IMG/VR virus record: IMGVR_UViG_3300032053_000647
Location: 1 to 20,890 of that record
Source of the DNA: a virus
Direction: 5' to 3' (one strand)
DNA: 20,890 nucleotides
The notes under the pieces were generated by a model, which saw only the letters and a program-made list of their open reading frames with translations, was not told where the DNA came from and did no database searches. The translations under genes were made by a program, and so were the position numbers. How positions within the stretch are numbered: position 1 is the stretch's first letter; each line of letters opens with the position of its first letter. Shown here one piece after another: positions 4,033-16,861 of this stretch.

Positions 4033-4129
4033 GTCAAAATACACACGACCCTAAAGGGTCGGTGCTTGTAAGACCCCGACACTTGCCAAGGATTTATATA
4101 CATTTGGCGTATTGACTGACGCCTGCCCG
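4033..4129 (-). ncRNA. Predicted omega-RNA (reRNA) scaffold, 97-bp repeat copy A
   Basis: In IS200/IS605 elements the guide RNA of TnpB overlaps the 3' end of tnpB and the right end, and the guide is read from the DNA just outside that end. This stretch holds the last 25 codons and stop of tnpB plus 18 bases beyond, with the right-end hairpin at 4046-4061. It is repeated with one mismatch (C4077 versus T11676) at 11632-11728. On the minus strand the guide would be copied from about 4032 downward, starting ATAATACATATTGG. The RNA itself is inferred from family knowledge. Confidence 0.5.
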
Positions 4130-5193
4130 TAAGTCAGGTTTGTGGTCTGTGATACGGGAAGTTTGGATACTTTAGCAATGTTTATGCTTGCGTTTATATC
4201 CGCATCATATACTAATCCATTTGGAGAGTAAAACCTACAACCTCGCCTTTCACCTTCAATCTTACCGCTTACGCAGTCAGTTTGAGAAGTGTATTGCGGG
4301 CAAACTAACAGCACCATTTTTCCTTGGTTCTGTGCCTTATAGGTTATTACTCTACGGAGTTCGTATAATGGAACTTGCGATATACTATGCTTATTCTGGT
4401 ATGGATTTTTCTTTCGTTTGATGGACTTGAGGTTCTCTAAACAAATCGTATCTGCCTCGGTCTTGAGAATGAGATTGGCAATCAGATGGGTCTGATTTTT
4501 GTTTTGATTGCGTTCCTTACGCTTCAAGGAGAAGCGAAGTTTGTGTCGGGCAGATTTGGTTCCCTTGGACTTGAGTTGGTCTTTTTGGTGTCTCAATCTG
4601 CGTTTTCGTTCATTGAAACTTTTGTCTATAATCAGTCGTCCATCACTTGTGGCTGCTGACCTACGGATGCCTAAATCCACTCCCAATGCTAATCTTTGTT
4701 TGAGTTGTGGTTGCTTATTCTCAAAGGACAGGCAGATATACACGTTGCCATCATTCTCATAGATAAGTGGGTCTTGGTATGGATACTTCTCAATCAGTTC
4801 CTTGAGGCGGGGATAGACCACGAAGTTATAGGTCTGTCTCTTGCCTGTGGTAGTGATACGAATGGAAAACTTATCGGGTATAGAATACAACCTCTTATCA
4901 AGTCGCATTGAGAGATTGGTCTTCACAATGGGTTTAGTAATCTTATGCCTATTGGATTTGATTGACCTGTATCCAGCAAGAACTTCTTGTTCTGCTTTGA
5001 TTACGACTTGAGATGGGATTTCGGGGTTTGACTTGCGGACGTTCTTATAGACCTTGGAATGGAGGATTACGAGAGATTTGGTCTTCTCGGGGAACTGCTC
5101 CTTGGAGGCGATATTATACACCAACTGCTCCATTTGGAGTAGTTTCTTCAACTCATCGGTGTCTCCGAGTAGTTTGGTGTTATACGTAATCAT
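4051..5193 (-). CDS. tnpB: TnpB-family RNA-guided endonuclease
   Basis: A 380-residue protein of typical TnpB length. A helical N-terminus is followed by a beta-rich wedge-like region, then the RuvC motifs: LALGVDLGIRRSAATSDG (Asp173), DTICLENLKSI (Glu253) and YDADINASINIAK (Asp332). The catalytic triad is intact. The zinc knuckle normally seen between RuvC-II and -III (CxxC...CxxC) is degenerate: in TSQTDCVSG...RRGCRFYSPNG only Cys307 aligns well, with Cys319 nearby. TnpB uses a right-end-derived RNA to cut DNA next to a short adjacent motif and promotes retention of its element. The stop codon TAG lies inside the right-end hairpin. A minus-strand promoter lies at 5202-5230. Its base composition appears somewhat GC-richer than the neighbours, consistent with transfer. 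Confidence 0.88.
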   Translation of the reverse strand: MITYNTKLLGDTDELKKLLQMEQLVYNIASKEQFPEKTKSLVILHSKVYKNVRKSNPEIPSQVVIKAEQEVLAGYRSIKSNRHKITKPIVKTNLSMRLDKRLYSIPDKFSIRITTTGKRQTYNFVVYPRLKELIEKYPYQDPLIYENDGNVYICLSFENKQPQLKQRLALGVDLGIRRSAATSDGRLIIDKSFNERKRRLRHQKDQLKSKGTKSARHKLRFSLKRKERNQNKNQTHLIANLILKTEADTICLENLKSIKRKKNPYQNKHSISQVPLYELRRVITYKAQNQGKMVLLVCPQYTSQTDCVSGKIEGERRGCRFYSPNGLVYDADINASINIAKVSKLPVSQTTNLTYGQASVNTPNVYKSLASVGVLQAPTL

Positions 5194-5195
5194 TC

Positions 5196-5263
5196 ACACA
5201 ATACATATCATACCAAATGGAAAAAGTCAATCTTTTTGTGAAATAGATGATATGTATTGGTGT
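5196..5263. repeat. Inverted repeat in the left end of the tnpB element
   Basis: ACACAATACATATCAT (5196-5211) is an inverted copy of ATGATATGTATTGGTGT (5247-5263), separated by 35 bases, with one extra base in the right arm. It lies directly upstream of the tnpB start and covers the -10 of its promoter. A related ATATGTATTATGTC occurs at 4022-4035, just across the right-end boundary. It may be a transposase or self-regulation site. Confidence 0.55.
5202..5230 (-). promoter_or_regulatory. Promoter of tnpB
   Basis: Read on the minus strand: TTGACT (5230-5225), a 17-base spacer, TATGTA (5207-5202), with the tnpB ATG at 5193. The -10 is poor in its last bases, and it overlaps one arm of the inverted repeat. 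The start codon is so close that a transcript would have almost no leader. Confidence 0.5.
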
Positions 5264-5308
5264 CGTTGCTCCTCCCCTACCCTAAAGGGATAGGGGTTTC
5301 CGCAACGA
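5263..5308. repeat. Left-end hairpin of the tnpB element
   Basis: The outer stem TCGTTGC (5263-5269) pairs with GCAACGA (5302-5308). The inner stem CCCCTA+CCC (5274-5282) pairs with GGG+TAGGGG (5287-5296) with one bulged A and loop TAAA. It shares ACCCTAAAGGG with the right-end hairpin, as expected for sub-terminal hairpins recognised by a single-strand transposase. Confidence 0.7.
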
Positions 5309-5330
5309 GAAAAAATATGAAGCGGATGAA

Positions 5331-5338
5331 TATTTATA
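5331..5338 (+). promoter_or_regulatory. TATTTATA motif copy 2
   Basis: TATTTATA only 6 bases before the ATG at 5345, with no Shine-Dalgarno sequence between. If it is a -10 element the message would be leaderless or nearly so. Confidence 0.4.
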
Positions 5339-5344
5339 GTACAT

Positions 5345-7609
5345 ATGGCATTACAACTTTTAAGTAGTCAGGGAAAACGCGGGGTAGATCTTCATCTATT
5401 GACGATGCCGGCGGACATAGAAGATACATCGTATCTTTCTACGTACTTCGATGTCGTCGAATTCAGTCCGATTTTCACGGCTGGTAAAAACTCCGTGGCA
5501 TTCAATGGAACTCCTCTTCTTTCCCCAAATTCTGAAATTCAGGTTCAATGTATTGACTCAAATGGGAATTCGCTTTATTTGGAGTATCCGAAAAGCAAAA
5601 CCCAATTTGTGGACGTTGCCAACTTTGTTGTTGCTATTCACGTTTATAATGAAATATATAATGGGGTGGGAAAACTGATTGTTGTTGGAACGTCGAAGAA
5701 GGGAGAAATCGTTCGGTGGACTGCAAACATTTCAATTGATAAGACACTTCAGAATATCTCAAAAACACGCTTCTATTCCACTCCCACGATGGAAGCTCGT
5801 TCTCTTCTTTATCCTGTCATTAGTAATGACATCGCTCTTCAACAAACGTATCTTATACGGTTCACCGGCAGTTTTTATGCCAATGCAATTATTCCTCCGA
5901 AAGATACAATACAGTCTTATATCAATCCAAAGAAAATTGATATAGATTACAGAATAACGTATAATGCTCCCAACCAATCTTTGATTAGTCCTCAGATTTA
6001 TCCTACTACCTCATTCAATACCCAGATGGAAGGTCAATCGATCCTTCTGACATCTAATATTATTCAGGAACCATTCTCATATAAAGAAAAATATACTAAT
6101 GTGTCGGCGTCATTTAAAATAAAGAAGGTTATTAATAGTAATACACTTCAGGTTTCCGACGCATTTTTCTACCAAAATGGTAAAGATCAGATAATAACTA
6201 ATATAAATCTTGGTCAATTTACATCTTCTTACAAGTGGATTTCTTACAATACAGCACCCGACATTTACAAAAAGTATGTTCCTCCGGGAGAAGATCCCAT
6301 TTATGTAAAGGATTCGTATGCCGAAATACTTTATAGAAATATAGGTACATTTTCAGGATTTATTGCTCGTCATAAACTCTATAGAAAAAGTTCACTATAT
6401 CCTGGTGATTTCCAATTACTAACTGATGAGCCGCTCGGAACTCGGGAGCTTCTGGTTGATCCGGTAACAGCCAATAAATCGTATAATTTGATTGGGTCAT
6501 TCTATAACTCGGTTCATATTGACAAATATTGGTTTACCAGCTCAACCGATTTTCAACTTTCTCATTCCGTTACTCCCCAAATAAATGCTATGAGAATAAA
6601 TACATTGGGGTCTTTTTCCAAAATGGATGGAACCAAATACATTATTGTCAAAACGGATTCAGTAGATACTATTCCAAATGACCATACATATTGGCCATAT
6701 GATGAGGATCAATTCAATGAACTTCAAGGATTGAAATATAATTCCAATTTTATTGATTTAAAATCTGGTTCACTATATGCATTATCAATGAACCTTTCCA
6801 TAGAAAAGGAAAATCTTGATACTTCGGCTAAACTTCAATTTTTCTTTACCAGTTCTATTTCAGACATAAAGAAAGAAAAGAATTACATTTCTCCATTTGG
6901 GTTAAAACTTGGAGAAATTGATGTAAACGAAGACACAACCACCAAACATTTCTCCAATAAGCAATACTTTTATTTTACTCCAAAGGAAGATTACTTTGGG
7001 ACTCTGGTAATTGTTCCATATCATTGCGGTGCCATATTTTCCGAAATATCTCTTGGAGTTTATGGAGACCATGGATTTTCGCCCGATAGTTTGACAACAA
7101 AAATACCATTTAAAGTTAATTGTCAGAACGAAGTGTGGCAACTAAAATCTGAATTGTACGACATCAATTCTATATTAGTATATTCTGACTTAAAAACGGT
7201 TCAGACGTTTGATGCCACAGGTGAAAGCTTATTTGTATTTATTGGGAATAGTAATATAGATCCATCCAATGTTTCTTTTATATCAGGAAGTCTTACAGTT
7301 TCGAAGAGCTTATTTCTTCCAAATCTCCCGGGATGTCCTCCATCCGATAAGCGTTTTATTGCCTGGGAACCACCAACTCATTATCCTCCAGAAGCTGGAG
7401 ATGGAGTATTGTGTTATACTAACTTAACTGCGGTTGAACTTTTACCGACCAATGACTTGGGTACGGTTACTACGAAGGATTATATCAATATTGTAACTAC
7501 TAATGACAACGAACAATCCATTGCTATACGTTACAGTGGAAATGGTGTAGATATAGCCGGGCGGCGTATTTATATAGATTCTTCGGGGGTAAAACACACA
7601 TATTCTTAA
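5345..7609 (+). CDS. Large probable virion structural protein, family not recognised
   Basis: A 754-residue protein starting at ATG 5345; no ribosome-binding site precedes it, only TATTTATA. It shows no signal peptide, no membrane segment and no catalytic motif that I recognise. The composition is rich in Ser, Thr, Asn, Tyr, Ile and Phe with many short alternating hydrophobic stretches, suggesting an all-beta extracellular or virion protein. Tail, baseplate, neck or fibre proteins of large phages look like this. Its place just before the terminase genes, a usual neighbourhood of neck and tail genes in T4-like phages, supports a structural role, but that is inference. The C-terminus (GNGVDIAGRRIYIDSSGVKH) looks like a compact beta domain. 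The gene appears complete, with no frameshift. Confidence 0.55.
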   Translation: MALQLLSSQGKRGVDLHLLTMPADIEDTSYLSTYFDVVEFSPIFTAGKNSVAFNGTPLLSPNSEIQVQCIDSNGNSLYLEYPKSKTQFVDVANFVVAIHVYNEIYNGVGKLIVVGTSKKGEIVRWTANISIDKTLQNISKTRFYSTPTMEARSLLYPVISNDIALQQTYLIRFTGSFYANAIIPPKDTIQSYINPKKIDIDYRITYNAPNQSLISPQIYPTTSFNTQMEGQSILLTSNIIQEPFSYKEKYTNVSASFKIKKVINSNTLQVSDAFFYQNGKDQIITNINLGQFTSSYKWISYNTAPDIYKKYVPPGEDPIYVKDSYAEILYRNIGTFSGFIARHKLYRKSSLYPGDFQLLTDEPLGTRELLVDPVTANKSYNLIGSFYNSVHIDKYWFTSSTDFQLSHSVTPQINAMRINTLGSFSKMDGTKYIIVKTDSVDTIPNDHTYWPYDEDQFNELQGLKYNSNFIDLKSGSLYALSMNLSIEKENLDTSAKLQFFFTSSISDIKKEKNYISPFGLKLGEIDVNEDTTTKHFSNKQYFYFTPKEDYFGTLVIVPYHCGAIFSEISLGVYGDHGFSPDSLTTKIPFKVNCQNEVWQLKSELYDINSILVYSDLKTVQTFDATGESLFVFIGNSNIDPSNVSFISGSLTVSKSLFLPNLPGCPPSDKRFIAWEPPTHYPPEAGDGVLCYTNLTAVELLPTNDLGTVTTKDYINIVTTNDNEQSIAIRYSGNGVDIAGRRIYIDSSGVKHTYS

Positions 7610-7951: not shown

Positions 7952-8602
7952 ATGATAAAAAAATATAAGGGATTATCTAATATCGAAATATTAAAAAAAT
8001 ATATTTCGGGAGAACGTCCTTTTACGATTGTTGGATATACATCACCTACTATAAAACGAAGTGTAGGAGAACAATATGTCGATTCTAAAGGAGTAATGTG
8101 GAGACAAGAAACTGGTTACAAAACAAGAGTAAATAAACAAGCAGATATTATTCGAGACGCAATTCGGAAAAAATGTAGTATTTGCAATGCTGATGCGAGG
8201 TTTGGAAGTAGAATTGACAACATTTTGTATCGTAAAACAGGATTGTGTTCAAACTGTCTTATTGATTATGAAACCAAACTTCGTATTGTTGGAGTGTACG
8301 ATGATTACGAGTTATATAAACTTTCTGCCAATGAAATCGCATTTCTCAAAGATACGATGGACAAAATCGAAGAAACCATTAAATTTTTCTCAGAAGAATC
8401 TGGGGATGTAATCGCAATATGCAATTCAGATGGATTTATCGAACGCTGGAAAAATACTAACAAAGACAAGATACTTGAAGATGCAAAAAGAGATTTGAAA
8501 TTGGTGCGACAACGAATTATTGCTCTTACTAAAATCAAAACGCAGCATAAGAAGAAGTTTCAAACTGGAGCAAAGAAATTTAACCTTGAAACTTATGTCT
8601 AA
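7952..8602 (+). CDS. Conserved-looking zinc-knuckle/coiled-coil protein upstream of the terminase
   Basis: A 216-residue protein with AAAGGA 8 bases before ATG 7952. The first 60 residues hold a segment IEILKKYISGERPFTIVGY. Then comes a treble-clef-like zinc site CSIC (75-78) and CSNC (99-102). The second half is a long charged helix region (about 125-200) likely to form a coiled coil. It ends 8 bases inside the start of the large terminase gene. In T4-like phages the small terminase (gp16) occupies this spot and is helical, so a packaging role is plausible, but the zinc site is not typical of gp16 and I do not assign the name. Confidence 0.5.
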   Translation: MIKKYKGLSNIEILKKYISGERPFTIVGYTSPTIKRSVGEQYVDSKGVMWRQETGYKTRVNKQADIIRDAIRKKCSICNADARFGSRIDNILYRKTGLCSNCLIDYETKLRIVGVYDDYELYKLSANEIAFLKDTMDKIEETIKFFSEESGDVIAICNSDGFIERWKNTNKDKILEDAKRDLKLVRQRIIALTKIKTQHKKKFQTGAKKFNLETYV

Positions 8603-11600
8603 CAAACCGCAAATCGAATATAAAGATATAATCAAAGACGAGTACAAAAAGTGTATGGAATCTCCTGTGTACTTTATGAAGCACTTCGTCAAGATTCAAC
8701 ATCCTCTTCGTGGTACTATTTTATTTGATCTTTATCCGTTCCAGGAAGAAACGCTTAAATCATTTCACGATTACAAATTCAACATTATTCTTAAATCCCG
8801 CCAGATGGGTATATCAACTCTTGTAGCTGTATATTCATTATGGATAATGATTTTTCATAAAGATAAAAATATTCTTTTGATTTCTTTGAAGCAGGATGAT
8901 GCGAAGGAAGTTATTACAAAAGTTCGTTTTGCCAATGAAAATCTTCCGACGTGGTTGAAAGTGCGATGTCAAGAGGATAATCGTCTATCGCTTAAATTCG
9001 CCAATGGTTCACAAATCAAAGCTGCTTCAACTACCAAGAAATCGGGTGTTGGTCATGCTTTGTCATTGCTGATTATTGACGAAGCTGCGCTTATTGAAGA
9101 TGCGGATGATTTATGGACTTCCGCCATACCAACGCTTAGTACAGGAGGGGATGCCATAATATTATCGTGTGTTACTAAAGATACAATGGTTATAACTTCT
9201 GAAGGAATAAAAGAAGTAGGAGATTTTGTTAATATATTTAAATCGGGGGGATATAAAATCAATAAATATGGAGTTATGGGAGTTCGTGGTATTCGGCATG
9301 GAACTCTTTTCCATAATAATGGAAAGCAAAGAACAAACATTATAAAAACAAAATTTTCGGAATTGGAATGTACTGAGAATCATAAATTATGGGCATATAA
9401 ACATAAAGATAATAAGTTTGATTGGTATCAATCATCCGAATTAGAATTGGGTGATTATATATCATTACAATATGGAAAACGATTATGGGGAATGAATAAT
9501 GATATATGTGGGTTTGATCCATCGGTGTCCTCTAAAATACATTCTCCATTTAACCCAAAATTATTAACGCCAGATTTGTGTTATTTATTGGGATTGTATA
9601 TTTCAGAAGGAAGTGTGTATAAAGTTCTAAATAAAGACGGAACATTAGTTGGTAGTTCATTGACAATTACGTGTGGGGATGATATTTCATGGGTATTCGA
9701 TAAACTTGGTCTAAATTATAGTTGTTGGGATGGACTCCACTATACAATATCTAATAAAAATCTTATAGAATTTATGGAATATATTGGATTTGATTTATCA
9801 GTAAAAGCAAGTCAGAAATATATTCCAGGTCGATTATTAGAAATGAGTGATGAAAATATAAAATGGATGCTTCGTGGTATATTTGATGGTGACGGAAGTG
9901 GTACAAATAAAATTGTAAAACTTACTTCTACATCCAAAAAACTTATTAATCAAGTTAGAATGATATTATCTAATTTTGGAATACTTGGTGGAATTTATAC
10001 TGAAACGCTTAAGAAACTAAATTCAAGAGCAAACAGGATAAAATACAACTATCAACCATACAATTTGGAAGTATGTGGAAGATATGCTCTAAAATTTTAT
10101 ATTCTTGTTGGATTTGCACTAGAAAGAAAACAGAAACACATTATTAATTTTTTATCAAGAAATCTAACCAGATCGTGCAGTCGAGATGTTATTCCCAATT
10201 CATTGGATATAGTTCAAGAATTAATAAAATCATCAGGACTTTCTTATTATGACATCAAGAAAAAACACGGAATATTTGTAAATTCATGTGCGACTAAGAA
10301 AACAAAGTATAAAACCTCTAATATTTCAAGAGATAATGTTTTATTATTATATTCCTTATTTTCCGAGAATCTTTCTTCAGAAGTTAAAGAATATTGGGAT
10401 AGAATTATAAATGAAAATGTTGTGTGGTGCGAAATAACATCTATTATTTCATCCGAAAATGAAACTTTTGATTTTTCTTTGCCAGATGACCCGGATGATT
10501 TTTGGTGTCATTCTATAATTTATAATGGAGTTATAGGTCATCAAACGCCGCGTGGTGTTGGTAACTGGTTTCATAAAATGTGGCAAGGTGCCGAAGAAGG
10601 TGGGGATGGGAAAGCTGGTAAAAATGAATTTCATCCTATTACTTTGCCGTGGCATTTGCATCCAGAACGTGATGATGAATGGCGCAGAATTGAAGGTGAG
10701 AAGCAAGGAAGTCCTAAAAAGGCGGCACAGGAATATGATTGCAACTTCCTCGCATCGGGTGATAACGTTGTTGACCTTGCCATTGTTGAATACTACAAAA
10801 AGAATAAAACCAAAGACCCCGAGGAAAGGCGCGGTGCTGAAAAGGCTTTATGGATTTGGGAATATCCAGGTAATCGTAGCTATGTAGTTTGCGCTGACGT
10901 GGCGCGTGGAGACGGTGCAGATTTTTCAGCATGTCATGTATTAGATATAACTTCAGAAAAACCTACTCAAGTTGCTGAATATAAGGGGTCACTGGGAACA
11001 AAAGATTTTGGAAATTTTTTGGTTCTTTTGGCAAGGGAATATAATGATGCTTTACTTATCGTAGAACGAGAAAGTTACGGCTGGGCAACTTTAAATCAAA
11101 TTATAAGCCAACAATATAAAAATACGTTCTATAGTTCTGCTGATATAAAATACGTAGATGTTCAACATCAACTTACTAATAAATGGGATGCCGAAGAAAA
11201 GAAATTGGTGCCGGGATTTAGTACCAACATCAAAACTCGTCCACTTATTATTGACAACCTGGAGCATTATTTTCGGAAAATGGCAGTAGAAATTAGATCA
11301 AAGAGAACTTTGTCTGAGTTGGAAACATTTATTTGGAAAAACAGCAAGCCAATTGCTATGAGTGGATATAACGACGATTTAATCATGTCTTTAGCTATTG
11401 GATTATGGGTTCGTGATACGGCTCTGCGTTTACGTCAAGAGGGAATTGATTTAACCAGAGCAGCCATCGGTAACATTGGTATGAGTAGAATGGATCAAAC
11501 ACCTTTTTATAAGACGAGAAATGCCCAAGTAGGCGCGGAATCGTGGACAATGAAGACGGGCAGACAAGGATTTGGAAAACAGAACCAGGAAGATTTGAAA

Positions 11601-11615
11601 TGGTTGCTTTCGTAG
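8595..11615 (+). CDS. Large terminase subunit (gp17-type) interrupted by an intein
   Basis: The precursor is 1006 residues from ATG 8595. The frame is open further upstream to 8520, but those codons overlap the previous gene. Residues 192-650 are an intein; the spliced product is 547 residues, near T4 gp17 (610). The N-terminal ATPase has the Walker A variant LKSRQMGISTL (67-76) and Walker B LLIIDEAAL (158-166). After the intein, TPRGVGNWFHKMW continues the ATPase (the coupling Thr region), and the RuvC-like nuclease carries Asp768 (CADVARGDGADFS), Glu824 (LLIVERES) and Asp927/928 (GYNDDLIMSL). It packages DNA into proheads and cuts concatemers at the portal. It overlaps the upstream gene by 8 bases and lacks a clear Shine-Dalgarno sequence, so it may be translated by coupling. 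Confidence 0.93.
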   Translation: MSNKPQIEYKDIIKDEYKKCMESPVYFMKHFVKIQHPLRGTILFDLYPFQEETLKSFHDYKFNIILKSRQMGISTLVAVYSLWIMIFHKDKNILLISLKQDDAKEVITKVRFANENLPTWLKVRCQEDNRLSLKFANGSQIKAASTTKKSGVGHALSLLIIDEAALIEDADDLWTSAIPTLSTGGDAIILSCVTKDTMVITSEGIKEVGDFVNIFKSGGYKINKYGVMGVRGIRHGTLFHNNGKQRTNIIKTKFSELECTENHKLWAYKHKDNKFDWYQSSELELGDYISLQYGKRLWGMNNDICGFDPSVSSKIHSPFNPKLLTPDLCYLLGLYISEGSVYKVLNKDGTLVGSSLTITCGDDISWVFDKLGLNYSCWDGLHYTISNKNLIEFMEYIGFDLSVKASQKYIPGRLLEMSDENIKWMLRGIFDGDGSGTNKIVKLTSTSKKLINQVRMILSNFGILGGIYTETLKKLNSRANRIKYNYQPYNLEVCGRYALKFYILVGFALERKQKHIINFLSRNLTRSCSRDVIPNSLDIVQELIKSSGLSYYDIKKKHGIFVNSCATKKTKYKTSNISRDNVLLLYSLFSENLSSEVKEYWDRIINENVVWCEITSIISSENETFDFSLPDDPDDFWCHSIIYNGVIGHQTPRGVGNWFHKMWQGAEEGGDGKAGKNEFHPITLPWHLHPERDDEWRRIEGEKQGSPKKAAQEYDCNFLASGDNVVDLAIVEYYKKNKTKDPEERRGAEKALWIWEYPGNRSYVVCADVARGDGADFSACHVLDITSEKPTQVAEYKGSLGTKDFGNFLVLLAREYNDALLIVERESYGWATLNQIISQQYKNTFYSSADIKYVDVQHQLTNKWDAEEKKLVPGFSTNIKTRPLIIDNLEHYFRKMAVEIRSKRTLSELETFIWKNSKPIAMSGYNDDLIMSLAIGLWVRDTALRLRQEGIDLTRAAIGNIGMSRMDQTPFYKTRNAQVGAESWTMKTGRQGFGKQNQEDLKWLLS
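9168..10544 (+). mobile_element. LAGLIDADG intein in the large terminase
   Basis: A 459-residue intein inserted in frame between Ser191 and a Thr, at the extein site ILS/TPRGVG just after the Walker B strand. It starts with Cys1 (CVTKDTMVIT, block A). Block B has the conserved His72 in FSELECTENHKLWA. The endonuclease domain has two LAGLIDADG motifs, LCYLLGLYISEG (137-148) and WMLRGIFDGDGS (233-244). The C-terminal splicing block reads ETFDFSLPDDPDDFWC...GVIGHQ followed by Thr+1. The last residue is Gln instead of Asn, which is rare, although Gln-ending inteins are known to splice. The homing nuclease retains acidic residues in both motifs and looks active. Confidence 0.92.
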
Positions 11616-11620
11616 CTTGC

Positions 11621-11628
11621 TATTTATA
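11621..11628 (+). promoter_or_regulatory. TATTTATA motif copy 4
   Basis: TATTTATA six bases after the terminase stop codon and four bases before the 97-bp repeat copy B. It would read into the repeat and the truncated endonuclease. Seen on the minus strand it is TATAAATA. Confidence 0.35.
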
Positions 11629-11631
11629 GGC

Positions 11632-11728
11632 GTCAAAATACACACGACCCTAAAGGGTCGGTGCTTGTAAGACCCTGACACTTGCCAAGGATTTATATAC
11701 ATTTGGCGTATTGACTGACGCCTGCCCG
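11632..11728 (-). repeat. 97-bp orphan tnpB right end (predicted omega-RNA scaffold), copy B
   Basis: Identical to 4033-4129 except T11676 for C4077, and in the same orientation. It holds the last 25 codons and stop of tnpB, the right-end hairpin CGACCC-TAAA-GGGTCG and 18 bases beyond it, but no other tnpB sequence and no left-end hairpin. On its right it stops abruptly against the truncated endonuclease fragment. It may be dead debris of a second TnpB element. If it is transcribed leftward it would yield a guide RNA whose guide begins GCCTATAAATAGCAAGCTAC, the sequence at the terminase 3' end, usable by the TnpB at 4051. The near-identity implies a recent copy. Confidence 0.8.
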
Positions 11729-11744
11729 ACTGCGAGTAGCTCAA

Positions 11745-12074
11745 ATGAGAGGAAGAAAATTATCAGAAGAAACAAAGAAAAAGATTAAACAATCTTTAAT
11801 GGGTCATATTGTAAAACAATCTACGAAACAAAAGATAAGTAATTGTCACCGGGGAAAACCAAGACCATGTACAGAGGCAAAACGAATTAGTATTGCCAAT
11901 GCTCGTAAACCGGAAGGAGGATTTCCTTCTTTAATATCTCCATCGGGGCAAATATTTCATATAGATATACTTTCAGATTTTTGTAGAGAACACAATCTTC
12001 ATTTGCCGACGATATGTGGATTAATAAGAGGATATAAGAATGTCAAATCTCATAAGGGGTGGAGATTATCATAA
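11745..12074 (+). pseudogene. C-terminal fragment of a NUMOD-type homing endonuclease
   Basis: A 109-residue frame beginning MRGRKLSEETKKKIKQSLMG, which is a NUMOD3 DNA-binding motif (LSEETKKKI), followed by a second, weaker copy (STKQKISNCHRGKPRP). It ends with a modular helix-turn-helix-like tail typical of phage homing endonucleases: LISPSGQIFHIDILSDF, ATTIC-like LPTICGLIRG and SHKGWRL. No nuclease catalytic domain is present. Upstream the frame is open only to a stop at 11712, inside the 97-bp repeat. The nuclease half (probably GIY-YIG or HNH) was therefore replaced at about 11728/11729 by the tnpB end. The start at 11745 has no Shine-Dalgarno sequence, and expression is doubtful. Confidence 0.65.
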
Positions 12075-12092: not shown

Positions 12093-12100
12093 TATTTATA
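12093..12100 (+). promoter_or_regulatory. TATTTATA motif copy 5, upstream of the portal gene
   Basis: TATTTATA 62 bases before the portal ATG. This copy leaves room for a normal leader with a Shine-Dalgarno sequence (AAAGGA 12151-12156, 6 bases before ATG 12163) and is the best-placed of the six for a promoter role. Confidence 0.5.
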
Positions 12101-12162: not shown

Positions 12163-15100
12163 ATGCCAAGTCCATTACAAATAAAGCCATTTGAAGACGA
12201 GATCTTAGACGTTAAGAAGTCGTCACTATATGCAAGATTAAAGAGACTGTTCTCTACGGACGTTATTGTTCGTAATGTCGGTGGTAAACAGCTTAAAATA
12301 AAAGATACTGATAATATCATGTACGCAACGGATAAAAATTCGTTGCGAGACAGATTTAATCGCATTCGTTCCACAGCTTACAATGCTTATACTCGTGATT
12401 TTGCATTGTCGTATCAAGCAGCACGAATGGACCTATTTCGTGATTATGATTGTGTCGGACCAGATACTATCATTCCATTGCCAGACGGAAGCAGACCTAC
12501 AATAAAAGAACTCGCCGAAAAATACAAAAACAAACCCCAAGAGAGATTTTATGTATTTTCTTACGACCACGAGACCGACTCTATTAAATTGGGGAAAGCA
12601 TACTACCCAAGAAAGAAAAAAGGAACCCGAGTTGGTTATAAGGTAACTTTTGATAACGGCCAATATATCATTGGAAGTATAAAACATCCATTTATGATGA
12701 GAAATGGGGAATATAAAATGATTTTTGACCTTAAAGTGGGGGAATCTGTAATGCCATTTTATCAAAAGAATTATAATTGTAGATATAATAAATACAAAAC
12801 CTTATACAACTTCTCAAAGGGATGGCAATCTGAACATAAGATTGTTGCAGAACAATTTAACCGACCTTTGAAAGAGAATGAAATTGTTCATCATAAAAAC
12901 TTTAAGGGTTATGATAATTTGCCTAATAATTTACAAATAATGACGGGGGAAGAACATACACAATTCCATTCTAATTATAGTAAAAATGTTTTGTGGGGGC
13001 AAGAAAATTATGAAACGCAACTTAAAAAATTGCTCTCAAATGAAAATTACATAAACAGAGATTTCCACCATTGGAATGGAGAACGAATAGGAGAAAATAA
13101 TCCATTTTTCGGGGAAAGTCACTCAGATGAATCAAACGAAAAACGTTCCAAAACGCTTAAGGAAGTTTTTATAAACAGAGACCAAAACGGAAATAAAAAT
13201 CCAAAATACAGAAATGACCTAACCATAGAAGTATTACGGGTTAAAGCGGCGGCACATTATAAGCAAAATGGAAAATTAACCTCTTGGGGTTTTGTCAAAG
13301 AGTTAGGGTGTGATTATTCTGTATTACAAAATCGTTTAGAAAGTAATAATATTGACTGGAAAACATTCAAACATGAAGTAGAATCTACTCTTAACCATAA
13401 AATTGTTTCCATTGAATCCATTGGTCAAATTGATGTATATGATGTTACGGTAGAGAAATATCACAACTTTGCTACTGATAGTTGTTTCGTAAAAAATACA
13501 ATGGACATGGACCCCATAATGTGTTCAGCCCTGGACATTTATGCTGATGAATGTCTGACTTATAACGAAATGGGTAGGATGATTACTGTCCATTCCAATA
13601 ATAATAATGTCAAAAAGATCCTCGAAAACTTGTTTGATGAAATTTTAAATGTTCGTTTTAATCTATGGTCATGGGTCAGAAACATGTGTAAATATGGAGA
13701 TTTTTTTCTTAAACTCTATGTTACTCCCGAATATGGAGTTTACATGGTAGAACCTATTTCCGCTTATAATGTAGAACGTATTGAGAATTCCGACCCTTAT
13801 AATAAGCGATATGTCAAATTTCAAATTCGACCAAGTGATACGGCGCAAGCTGAAGTTCTCGAGAATTATGAAGTTGCTCACTTTCGTTTAATTTCCGATA
13901 GTAATTTCCTTCCATATGGTAAGTGTTTGACATCAAATAGTTATGTAAAGACGGAGTTTGGTTCTAAAAGAATAAATGAAATGGAAATTGGGGAACGGAT
14001 ATGGTCATTTAATAAAGAAAATCAACAATTTGAACTTACTTCGGTTCTGAATAAATGTTCGTCGGGTCTAAAAGAAACACTTAAAATTTCATCACAACAT
14101 AATAATATTGAGTGTAGTTTTAATCATCCAATATTGGTTTATTCCAACGATACATTAGAATATAAGCAGGCGAGAAATGTGTCAGTAGGAGATTTGTTAG
14201 TATTAGATAATACAATTAACAGATCGAGATCTTTATTATTGAATAAGACATTACTTACAAATGAAAATCACAATGGATGGAGAAATAATCTTCTTACTCT
14301 ACCAAGTTATCCAGACGCCAAGTTCGCAAGATTCTTTGGATTTATGCTTGGGGATGGATGGTTAAATAAGGATTTGAATAGGGTATCGTTTGCCACTGGA
14401 ATAGATGATGAGTTAAATGAAAAATATTCAGGAATTCTCGGAGAATATTCCAAGAAAGAAGCAACTATACTTCCTCCAAGAGAAAATAGTGGAGGACAAC
14501 GATATGTGGATTCCAAATTGTTAGCGGAGTTTTTATATGTCAATGGATTTGTAGGAGATGCGACTACTAAACGAATACCACAATGGGTATATGAATTAGA
14601 TGATTGGAGTAAATTAGAGTTTATACGGGGGTTTGTTGATGCTGACGGAAGCATTTTTACTGATAAGTGGAATGTTAATCGTTATTCTGTAGAATTAACA
14701 AATAAATTGTTGGTGGAAGATATTAAAGAACTTTTGTGGGGGTTAAACATAAAATGTTCCAATGTGAAATCCCGAAGATTCGATGGAGAAACAGAAATTT
14801 GTGGAGTCAAGTGTCATAGAAATACATCTCATTATATCTATTTTTATTTGGATGGTAATAAAAAAACACAATTACAAAAATATGATTTTATAAAAAACGA
14901 AAACATAATTTTAGATCCTATCACTTCTATTGTAGCGAGTGGATTACAAGAAACATATGATATTCAAGTGGAGTCGTCTAACTCCAACTTCATTGCCAAC
15001 GGAATGGTAGTTCATAATTCTATGATTGAAGGTGCCCGCCGCATCTGGAAACAGCTTTCACTTATGGAAGACGCCATGCTTATACATCGTATCATGCGTG

Positions 15101-16365
15101 CTCCCGAAAAACGTATTTTCTATACTGATATTGGAAACATTCCCCCAAATGAAGTGGATAATTACATGCAGAAAATGATGGATAAAATGAAGAAAATTCC
15201 TTATATGGATGAACAATCCGGGGAATATAATCTGCGTTTTAACCTTCAAAACATGGTAGAGGATTATTACATTCCTGTTCGTGGTAGCGATAGTGGTACA
15301 AAGATTGATACTCTCGGTGGTATGGAATGGACTGGAATTGATGATATTAACTATTTGCTTAACAAATTGATGGCTGCGCTTAAGATTCCAAAGGCATTTC
15401 TTGGATATGAAGAAGGTATTTCAGGAAAAGCAACCCTGGCATCAGAAGATGTTCGTTTTGCCCGAACTATTCAACGCCTCCAGCGTATTATAGCATCTGA
15501 ACTTGAAAAGATAGGTATTGTTCACCTGTACGCACAAGGATACCGGGATGAAAGTTTAGTTGATTTTGCAATCGAACTTACGAACCCATCTACAATTTTT
15601 GAAAAGGAAAAGGTTGAGATTTGGTCTGATAAAGTTTCTGTGGCGACTGACATGGTTGAGAACAAATTTTTCTCTTTTAACTGGATTTACAAAAACATCT
15701 TTAATATGTCAGAAGATGACATCAAAATTGTCAAGGACGAGGTTGTCGAAGACGCGAAACAACGCTATCGTTTCACTTCTATTGAGAATGACGGCGATGA
15801 CCCAGCCAAACCGTTCAAAAAAATTGGAGGTAAGGGGGGTGATGATGATGAGGGGGGAGATGACTTCGGAGATATTGGAAAAGGTGGTCATGGAGGGGGT
15901 GGGGGAGGTAAAATTCCAGATCTGGATGACTTAAGCGATTTGGATGATGAAGGAGGAGAAAAGGGCGAGGGTGAAGGCGAGGAAAAAGGAAAAGATGAAG
16001 GCCCGCCAGAAGACATCAAAGAAACCAAGAAACCCGAGCGAGACCAAAGTGGAGAACACGATGCTAGGGCACAACATCCTATGTCAGAAGACCCGTTAGG
16101 CCAACATGCCAGACATGAGACTCCCAAGAAAAATAGTGAAAGAAAGAAGAAAAGCGCTTTAACTCACAATTATGAAGGTGGCTCTCCTTTGGGGAGATTA
16201 CGAGAACGTATCACTCCTCCAGTGGATAAAGCAATGATAAGCAGTTTGTCTGAATTTCTATCTAAAACTCATAAAGATACACAGAAAGAATTACTCAAAG
16301 AAAATGTCGGTGATAATCCCAATGGTAGTAGGTCTATGATGGACGAAAAAAACATTTTAGAATAG
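12163..16365 (+). CDS. Portal vertex protein (gp20-type) interrupted by two inteins
   Basis: The precursor is 1400 residues, with exteins encoded at 12163-12450, 13498-13923 and 15019-16365. Splicing gives ~686 residues against 524 for T4 gp20. Portal-type sequence is seen in DPIMCSALDIYADECL and, after the second intein, in the gp20-like stretch ARRIWKQLSLMEDAMLIHRI...RAPEKRIFYTDIGN, then KIPKAFLGYEEGISGKATLA. The portal is the dodecameric ring through which DNA enters the head; it nucleates head assembly and docks the terminase. The extra length is a C-terminal low-complexity tail from ~residue 1208: Gly/Asp/Glu-rich, then Lys/Glu/Pro-rich, probably disordered. A good Shine-Dalgarno sequence (AAAGGA) precedes ATG 12163. 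The HNH gene begins one base after its stop codon. Confidence 0.92.
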   Translation: MPSPLQIKPFEDEILDVKKSSLYARLKRLFSTDVIVRNVGGKQLKIKDTDNIMYATDKNSLRDRFNRIRSTAYNAYTRDFALSYQAARMDLFRDYDCVGPDTIIPLPDGSRPTIKELAEKYKNKPQERFYVFSYDHETDSIKLGKAYYPRKKKGTRVGYKVTFDNGQYIIGSIKHPFMMRNGEYKMIFDLKVGESVMPFYQKNYNCRYNKYKTLYNFSKGWQSEHKIVAEQFNRPLKENEIVHHKNFKGYDNLPNNLQIMTGEEHTQFHSNYSKNVLWGQENYETQLKKLLSNENYINRDFHHWNGERIGENNPFFGESHSDESNEKRSKTLKEVFINRDQNGNKNPKYRNDLTIEVLRVKAAAHYKQNGKLTSWGFVKELGCDYSVLQNRLESNNIDWKTFKHEVESTLNHKIVSIESIGQIDVYDVTVEKYHNFATDSCFVKNTMDMDPIMCSALDIYADECLTYNEMGRMITVHSNNNNVKKILENLFDEILNVRFNLWSWVRNMCKYGDFFLKLYVTPEYGVYMVEPISAYNVERIENSDPYNKRYVKFQIRPSDTAQAEVLENYEVAHFRLISDSNFLPYGKCLTSNSYVKTEFGSKRINEMEIGERIWSFNKENQQFELTSVLNKCSSGLKETLKISSQHNNIECSFNHPILVYSNDTLEYKQARNVSVGDLLVLDNTINRSRSLLLNKTLLTNENHNGWRNNLLTLPSYPDAKFARFFGFMLGDGWLNKDLNRVSFATGIDDELNEKYSGILGEYSKKEATILPPRENSGGQRYVDSKLLAEFLYVNGFVGDATTKRIPQWVYELDDWSKLEFIRGFVDADGSIFTDKWNVNRYSVELTNKLLVEDIKELLWGLNIKCSNVKSRRFDGETEICGVKCHRNTSHYIYFYLDGNKKTQLQKYDFIKNENIILDPITSIVASGLQETYDIQVESSNSNFIANGMVVHNSMIEGARRIWKQLSLMEDAMLIHRIMRAPEKRIFYTDIGNIPPNEVDNYMQKMMDKMKKIPYMDEQSGEYNLRFNLQNMVEDYYIPVRGSDSGTKIDTLGGMEWTGIDDINYLLNKLMAALKIPKAFLGYEEGISGKATLASEDVRFARTIQRLQRIIASELEKIGIVHLYAQGYRDESLVDFAIELTNPSTIFEKEKVEIWSDKVSVATDMVENKFFSFNWIYKNIFNMSEDDIKIVKDEVVEDAKQRYRFTSIENDGDDPAKPFKKIGGKGGDDDEGGDDFGDIGKGGHGGGGGGKIPDLDDLSDLDDEGGEKGEGEGEEKGKDEGPPEDIKETKKPERDQSGEHDARAQHPMSEDPLGQHARHETPKKNSERKKKSALTHNYEGGSPLGRLRERITPPVDKAMISSLSEFLSKTHKDTQKELLKENVGDNPNGSRSMMDEKNILE
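12451..13497 (+). mobile_element. HNH-type intein 1 in the portal protein
   Basis: A 349-residue intein between Asp96 (extein RDYD) and Thr+1 (TMDMDP). Block A begins CVGPDTIIPLPDG; block B is YKVTFDNGQYIIGSIKHPFM with the conserved His. Instead of LAGLIDADG it carries an HNH-like core: EHKIVAEQFNRPLKENEIV, HHKNFKGYDNLPNNLQIM and EEHTQFH. It is followed by a NUMOD3-like GENNPFFGESHSDESNEKR. The C-terminal blocks are IDVYDVTVEKYHNFATDS and CFVKN, then Thr. The penultimate residue is Lys where inteins usually have His, so Asn cyclisation may rely on other residues. Confidence 0.9.
13924..15018 (+). mobile_element. LAGLIDADG intein 2 in the portal protein
   Basis: A 365-residue intein between Lys587 (extein FLPYGK) and Ser+1 (SMIEGARRIW). 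Block A is CLTSNSYVKTEFGSKRI; block B is LKISSQHNNIECSFNHPILV. The homing domain has two LAGLIDADG motifs, FARFFGFMLGDGW and LEFIRGFVDADGS, both with their acidic residues. The C-terminus is canonical: TYDIQVESSNSNFIANGMVVHN followed by Ser. All splicing residues look intact. It is distinct from intein 1 in endonuclease type, so the two were acquired separately. Confidence 0.93.
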
Positions 16366-16366
16366 T

Positions 16367-16861
16367 ATGGAAGAATTCATAAAAAAGAGGTTTGGACGGT
16401 GGATTGTTGTTGAATTTTCCCATAAGGATAAATATAATAATTGTTATTATAAATGTAGGTGTGATTGTGGAACTGAAAAAATAATAGCTAAAAGCAACTT
16501 GAAGAGTGGGCAAAGTAAATCGTGTGGATGTTTACAAAAGATAAAACCATTCGAATCGTTGTATAAAAAGTTTGTTAGAACCAATAAATCTAGGAAGGTT
16601 CCGGTCAATTTAACCTATGAAGATTTTTTTAGTTTTACTACAACGGGAAAATGCCATTATTGTGGATGTTCGGTTCTATGGCATAAACACAACGCTACTG
16701 CACATTCTAATTACAATTTAGATAGAAAGGATAATACTGAAGGATATACTCTTGAAAATTGTCTTGTGTGTTGCGGAATATGTAATCATATGAAATCTTC
16801 AACGACCTATGACGAATTTATCAAAAAAGTAAGAGATATAACCCATAACCTATCCACATAA
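16367..16861 (+). CDS. Free-standing HNH homing endonuclease
   Basis: A 164-residue protein beginning one base after the portal stop codon. The N-terminal part (FGRWIVVEF, YYKCRCDCGTEKIIAKSN, SCGCLQ) is the short Cys-rich domain common in phage HNH homing enzymes. The HNH domain follows: CHYCG (96-100), NYNLDRKDNTEGYTLENC with the Asp-Arg and Asn positions, then CCGICNHMKS completing the zinc site. It likely nicks or cuts a cognate phage allele and moves into the gap behind the portal gene. No motif appears broken. The product would be translated from messages running out of the portal gene. Confidence 0.85.
   Translation: MEEFIKKRFGRWIVVEFSHKDKYNNCYYKCRCDCGTEKIIAKSNLKSGQSKSCGCLQKIKPFESLYKKFVRTNKSRKVPVNLTYEDFFSFTTTGKCHYCGCSVLWHKHNATAHSNYNLDRKDNTEGYTLENCLVCCGICNHMKSSTTYDEFIKKVRDITHNLST

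Follow-up and report, generated by a model that had tools for sequence, protein, structure and literature searches.

The 97-nt sequence at 11632-11728 of the window (the whole stretch of DNA analyzed here, an IMG/VR virus record of 20,890 bases from a T4-like phage) is very probably the right end of an IS605-type element that inserted independently at a homing endonuclease start codon and lost the remainder to a deletion; the stump is most likely inert. The history that can be read here is thus one in which a TnpB element would have inserted at the endonuclease start codon and a deletion then removed most of both. An insertion at this place acquires a guide that should target alleles carrying the rival nuclease gene.

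The window contains a single tnpB gene (4051-5193, minus strand), identified by Pfam match and family alignment. Its 380 amino acid product has an intact RuvC triad (D173, E253 and D330, aligned across the family) and matches Pfam Cas12f1-like_TNB at 3e-12 and ISDra2 TnpB (8bf8, 8h1j) at 1.8e-7; zinc-finger cysteines are mostly gone throughout its clade. Comparison with the L001 gene gives pS 0.28 and pN 0.026 (pN/pS ~0.09), and the protein is under purifying selection. The resident element, which is of the tnpB-only IS605 type, extends from its left to its right end over 4033-5316 (minus strand), limits that were set by left end identity with L022 and L024 and by the TTCAT borders. TTCAT itself occupies 5317-5321 at the left border (minus strand), and together with the left end and its hairpin (5261-5321, minus strand; hairpin 5274-5296) forms a 61 nt stretch identical to that of an autonomous IS605 element (TnpA plus TnpB) in L022; the right end also has a hairpin. 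The border copy in L022, as in the window, is the TTCAT immediately preceding ATTTTTT. The left border is TTCAT both in the window element and in nine relatives (L001, L003, L005, L009, L012, L022, L024, L031 and L035), and this sequence is therefore taken as the target motif and the TAM; in ISDra2 these two are the same sequence (PMC8612924). The uninserted site of the resident element was also sought; the one match, in an unrelated gene, is due to chance.

The resident element has no tnpA of its own, as no Y1 transposase gene is present among the window ORFs. For end swapping, 4033-5316 was compared with L001, L020, L022 and L024. Over its last 36 nt the right end matches exactly IS605 elements whose TnpB is only ~40% identical, among them the TnpA-carrying IS in L022; L001, on the other hand, has a TnpB 96% identical to the resident protein and a left end 99% identical, but a different right end. 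Sharing of ends with a distant IS, together with the different right end of L001, suggests that ends are exchanged between elements and that mobilization in trans is likely.

A repeat finder shows that 4033-4129 and 11632-11728 form the sole long repeat in the window, 97 nt in the same orientation with one mismatch, exactly as the first-pass annotation had it, and a search of the genome against itself gives the second copy an E value of 6.8e-46. Read on the minus strand, the orphan copy consists of the final 26 tnpB codons including the stop, followed by the right end with its CGACCC-UUUA-GGGUCG hairpin and the TTTTGAC terminus at 11632. Neither the 5′ part of tnpB nor a left end lies next to it; to its left is endonuclease coding sequence with no TTCAT, and so it does not have the two borders and left TAM of a stand-alone mobile omega-RNA unit (a ghost locus or mini-element). 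Its left border is absent from all other loci examined, and a BLASTN comparison of both repeat regions with 50,697 phage records returned zero matches. L021, another phage contig, carries 26 nt of the same right-end sequence (TTTAGGGTCGTGTGTATTTTGAC, 7023-7048) without tnpB and near tRNA-like sequence, possibly a further solo right end.

The omega-RNA scaffold was described by a covariance model (R1) built from 11 relatives with both window copies left out. It finds both at full length: the orphan at 11632-11727 (minus strand; model positions 1-95 of 95) with 90.6 bits and an E value of 1e-20, and the resident copy with 89.9 bits. Stem 1 (GGCGU/ACGCC) has standard pairing in 14 of 14 sequences with changes on both sides in three of its five pairs, and an enlarged set of 16 sequences again gives 100% pairing and the same three of five. 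Pairing of the stem 1 loop GUCAA with the terminal UUGAC could form a pseudoknot, which is invariant or misaligned in the alignments and rests on the reading of GUCAA/UUGAC in all close relatives and GUCAC/GUGAC in L013; the ISDra2 omega-RNA has such a pseudoknot between the stem 1 loop and the 3′ end (PMC10097598). Stem 3 follows stem 1, and then comes stem 4 with a UUUA loop. The orphan retains stem 1, both pseudoknot strands, stem 3 and stem 4, and thus the whole core, and its one mismatch preserves pairing in stem 3, where a U-A pair takes the place of U.G.

The resident scaffold (4033-4158, minus strand, delimited by the covariance model and covariation) includes in addition a conserved hairpin 5′ of stem 1, which we call stem 0. 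This hairpin, CCCGUA...UACGGG with an inner CAGA/UCUG, was predicted independently by RNAalifold and shows changes on both sides in four of ten pairs among 16 sequences; its position in the resident copy is 4158-4126 (minus strand), where it overlaps the tnpB codons that directly precede the omega-RNA core. The orphan begins within its 3′ arm, of which only CGGG is left. The first-pass description of an omega-RNA right end that lacks tnpB and a left end is therefore upheld by the covariance model, but a scaffold lying wholly inside the 97 nt is not, since stem 0 is cut: the core is complete and the covarying 5′ hairpin is lost, so that the scaffold does reach in part into missing tnpB sequence, an outcome the annotation had held to speak against a guide function. 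Conserved 5′ stem loops are known in one TnpB clade (PMC10278001), while ISDra2 tolerates removal of all sequence 5′ of stem 1 (PMC10097598). For the scaffold described here no Rfam family exists. A scan of bacterial genomes for the scaffold core returned mostly intact or contig-end Spirochaetales tnpB copies and chance matches in unrelated genes, with a few truncated 3′ ends (e.g., L170 and L149) that have no clear TTCAT border. For this phage TnpB clade the analysis supplies a probable TAM (TTCAT) and a covariation-backed scaffold with an extra 5′ hairpin.

The origin of the orphan became apparent from a comparison of 27 related terminase junctions. One of them, L051, shares the terminase 3′ junction but lacks the insert: 22 nt are identical up to CTATTTATAG, after which come the TAM and an intact endonuclease gene. 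The TTTCGTAGCTTGCTATTTATAG stretch is common to the window and L051 only; on the plus strand the window continues from TTTCGTAGCTTGCTATTTATAG with GC and then the orphan, and L051 with AC and ATGAAATATTATG, while on the minus strand L051 reads TTTCAT followed by GTCTATAAATAGCAAGCTAC, and the window TTTTGAC followed by GCCTATAAATAGCAAGCTAC. The predicted TAM is therefore exactly at its predicted place in L051, and the orphan guide follows it with one mismatch (19/20). The guide-equivalent flank GCCTATAAATAGCAAGCTAC (11612-11631, minus strand) is the 3′ end of the terminase region, including a TATTTATA box at 11621-11628 on the plus strand; the gene concerned (8520-11615, plus strand) encodes a T4-type terminase large subunit with a LAGLIDADG intein. 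The earlier proposal that the orphan adjoins a guide (here the 20 nt beside it) is supported by an uninserted junction in a relative. TTCAT with the 19/20 site beside it is present only in L051 and L075 among the fetched loci, and when the complete viral collection was scanned for an exact pattern of the guide target, the L051 contig was the single hit. With a terminase 71% identical, L051 is a relative of the window phage and not its direct ancestor, and it has no tnpB.

The L051 gene encodes an endonuclease with GIY-YIG and NUMOD3 domains, and its first bases are ATGAA, the complement of which is TTCAT; the guide target adjoins this start codon, just upstream. The window retains a remnant of such a gene (11727-12074, plus strand), comprising ORF 11745-12074 and six upstream codons. 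The ORF is 54% identical to the L051 endonuclease from residue 112 on (the C-terminal part), and the six codons that precede its ATG (RLRVAQ) are homologous to L051 residues 106-111 (RLRSFQ). Homology to the endonuclease therefore resumes at base 11727, exactly where the 97 bp end. The remnant has NUMOD3 only; the first ~105 codons, with the GIY-YIG nuclease domain, are deleted. At the presumed breakpoint between the 3′ part of tnpB and endonuclease codon ~106 (11726-11729), 2-3 nt (CG/CCG) can be assigned to either side.

These observations are best accommodated by a short series of events. Comparison with L051 shows what the site looks like without the element: a GIY-YIG homing endonuclease gene comes after the terminase 3′ end, and the start codon of that gene (ATGAA, complement TTCAT) provided both insertion site and TAM. 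An element with tnpB alone, or a shorter derivative without it, would then have been inserted through TnpA acting in trans. From the structure of the junction, one deletion using 2-3 nt of microhomology would have taken the left end, most of the element body and the first ~105 endonuclease codons, so that the remaining right end (97 nt) came to adjoin the C-terminal half of the endonuclease gene; missing between the two are the left end, ~350 tnpB codons (if a full element was inserted) and those ~105 codons. The resulting stump should not be excisable because its left end is missing; since it also lacks its own promoter and one half of a conserved hairpin of the scaffold, it is most likely inert. 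At the position of the mismatch the orphan has the base of L001 and L002, which the resident copy does not, and for this reason the orphan appears to be a sister and not a daughter of the resident copy. The first-pass view that a recent copy of the resident end had been placed here as a guide locus accordingly gives way to a deletion remnant of a separate insertion.

Four points count against this deletion scar. The intermediate, a complete element beside a complete endonuclease gene, was not found. The comparison relies on L051, which as noted is not the direct ancestor. The breakpoint spares the scaffold core, lying six bases outside stem 1, and one deletion in ~1.28 kb would only rarely spare the core by chance, though this is judged after the fact. 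Finally, the orphan is hardly decayed (1 of 97 positions differs), so either the event was recent or the core has been kept.

A special case of the deletion scar, differing only in the element that was first inserted, is that the same deletion trimmed a mobile tnpB-less mini-element to give the orphan; this is possible, if somewhat unlikely. Such units exist in another phage contig, IMGVR_UViG_3300050010_000571 (L036/L039; 39 kb with at least 12 tRNA genes), which has a 143-nt unit at 31845-31987 and again at 23307-23449, and a 338-nt unit at 28074-28411 and again at 25437-25774. The copies are identical within each pair and have unrelated flanks, and all four are bordered by TTCAT and a right end, extending from TTCAT to GTTGAC; TTCAT occurs at about 0.0016 per base in this contig. 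They begin inside tnpB, as if cryptic left ends had been used, and carry stem 0, the whole core and the right end. No tnpA was found on the contig, which may be a fragment. Barring assembly error, these units are apparently candidate mobile stand-alone guide RNAs. The surviving 97 nt of the orphan cannot discriminate a full element from a mini-element as the source; on the other hand, no mini-element was found with the right-end sequence of the window phage itself, and the left border of the orphan is endonuclease sequence and not TTCAT. With the left TTCAT missing the orphan cannot itself count as an intact mini-element, although it might be what is left of one. When further 143-nt units were sought with a degenerate pattern, five chance matches came up beyond the two known copies, and an apparent insertion of one such unit in a tRNA anticodon loop was dropped, as ARAGORN sees no tRNA in the rejoined flanks.

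It is improbable, in our estimation, that the stump works through read-through minus-strand RNA which would guide the resident TnpB against endonuclease-bearing sister alleles, with tnpB-less omega-RNA units as a mobile guide layer served by TnpB and TnpA in trans. If true, the scar of one selfish element would disarm another selfish element. Any activity would hit endonuclease-bearing alleles, given that the target is immediately upstream of the start codon of the endonuclease. No sigma-70-like promoter was found on the minus strand between 11400 and 12500. On the minus strand the TATTTATA box at 12093-12100 becomes its reverse complement TATAAATA, the classical T4 late promoter word; as a candidate promoter it could in principle drive RNA through the orphan, but since relatives retain the box before the portal gene it is read as a putative portal promoter.

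The related idea of a stand-alone trans-acting guide, in which a leftward transcript of the orphan would bind the TnpB encoded at 4051-5193, cut uninserted endonuclease-bearing phages at TTCAT-GCCTATAAATAGCAAGC and so favor the window allele at co-infection, is distinctly improbable. It draws on a core that is complete by an independent covariance model (with the orphan scoring slightly above the resident copy), on the mismatch that makes a stem 3 U.G a U-A pair, on an intact TnpB under purifying selection, on the TAM and 19/20 target in L051, and on the dispensability of sequence 5′ of stem 1 in ISDra2 (PMC10097598). Yet the conserved stem 0 is broken, the left end is lost, the minus strand has no promoter-like site, and the L051 mismatch falls at guide position 2, within the expected seed; moreover, deletion accounts for the structure without selection. 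The anti-competitor role once suggested for the orphan keeps a target in just one of the 27 terminase junctions, a homing endonuclease-carrying allele and the one target allele known, and as a broad role it is weak. The 143- and 338-nt units fit the trans-guide idea better than the window orphan does, and are a better place for testing trans-acting guides in phages. Lastly, it is very improbable that recombination or gene conversion copied the resident right end into the terminase-portal gap to give the 97 bp: 99% identity inside one genome would suit this, but the guide-side border is exactly the TAM site of L051 and the mismatch base is that of L001/L002.

The resident element resembles the ISDra2-type IS200/IS605 elements in its RuvC triad, an omega-RNA overlapping the 3′ end of tnpB, the pseudoknot of stem 1 with the 3′ end, the UUUA tetraloop of stem 4, a flank-derived guide and a TAM equal to the insertion site (PMC8612924, PMC10097598). 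It differs from ISDra2 in its TAM (TTCAT here, TTGAT there), in having no tnpA in the window, in a TnpB clade whose zinc-finger cysteines are largely lost and in the extra conserved 5′ stem 0, and the orphan lacks in addition the left end and nearly all of tnpB. Like the ghost loci of Fanzor (PMC10432273), the orphan is an omega-RNA-like locus without a nuclease gene, with the nuclease encoded elsewhere; those loci, however, were described with inverted repeats and TAM regions, whereas the orphan is one end only and probably made by deletion. The haloarchaeal PATEs, degenerate IS605 elements with fused ends, are likewise non-coding IS605-type remnants that arose by core deletion, but unlike the orphan they retain both ends and mobility (PMC3119063). 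The 143- and 338-nt units in L036/L039 resemble both ghost loci (PMC10432273) and PATEs (PMC3119063), and are a closer parallel to the latter than is the orphan. The insertion site and 3′ flank of the orphan, finally, belong to a gene like the free-standing GIY-YIG/NUMOD3 homing endonucleases of T4-like phages, from which the window gene differs in being truncated, with its nuclease domain deleted.

The window encodes several endonuclease genes, and the packaging genes (8520-11615, with the terminase intein, and 12163-16365) form a dense cluster of homing elements with NUMOD3 and GIY-YIG genes nearby; the portal gene (12163-16365) has intein-splicing, LAGLIDADG and HNH_3 matches. The TATTTATA boxes at 5331, 11621, 12093 and 16889 (plus strand) repeatedly precede plus-strand genes, also in relatives. 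In L004, a 368 kb phage contig, an IS605-type unit (4578-7157) comprises tnpA (minus strand), an extra ORF and an HNH-type endonuclease ORF (5522-6007) that overlaps the start of tnpB, a homing-type nuclease carried within a TnpB element; an HNH-like ORF at 16367-16861 of the window resembles it.
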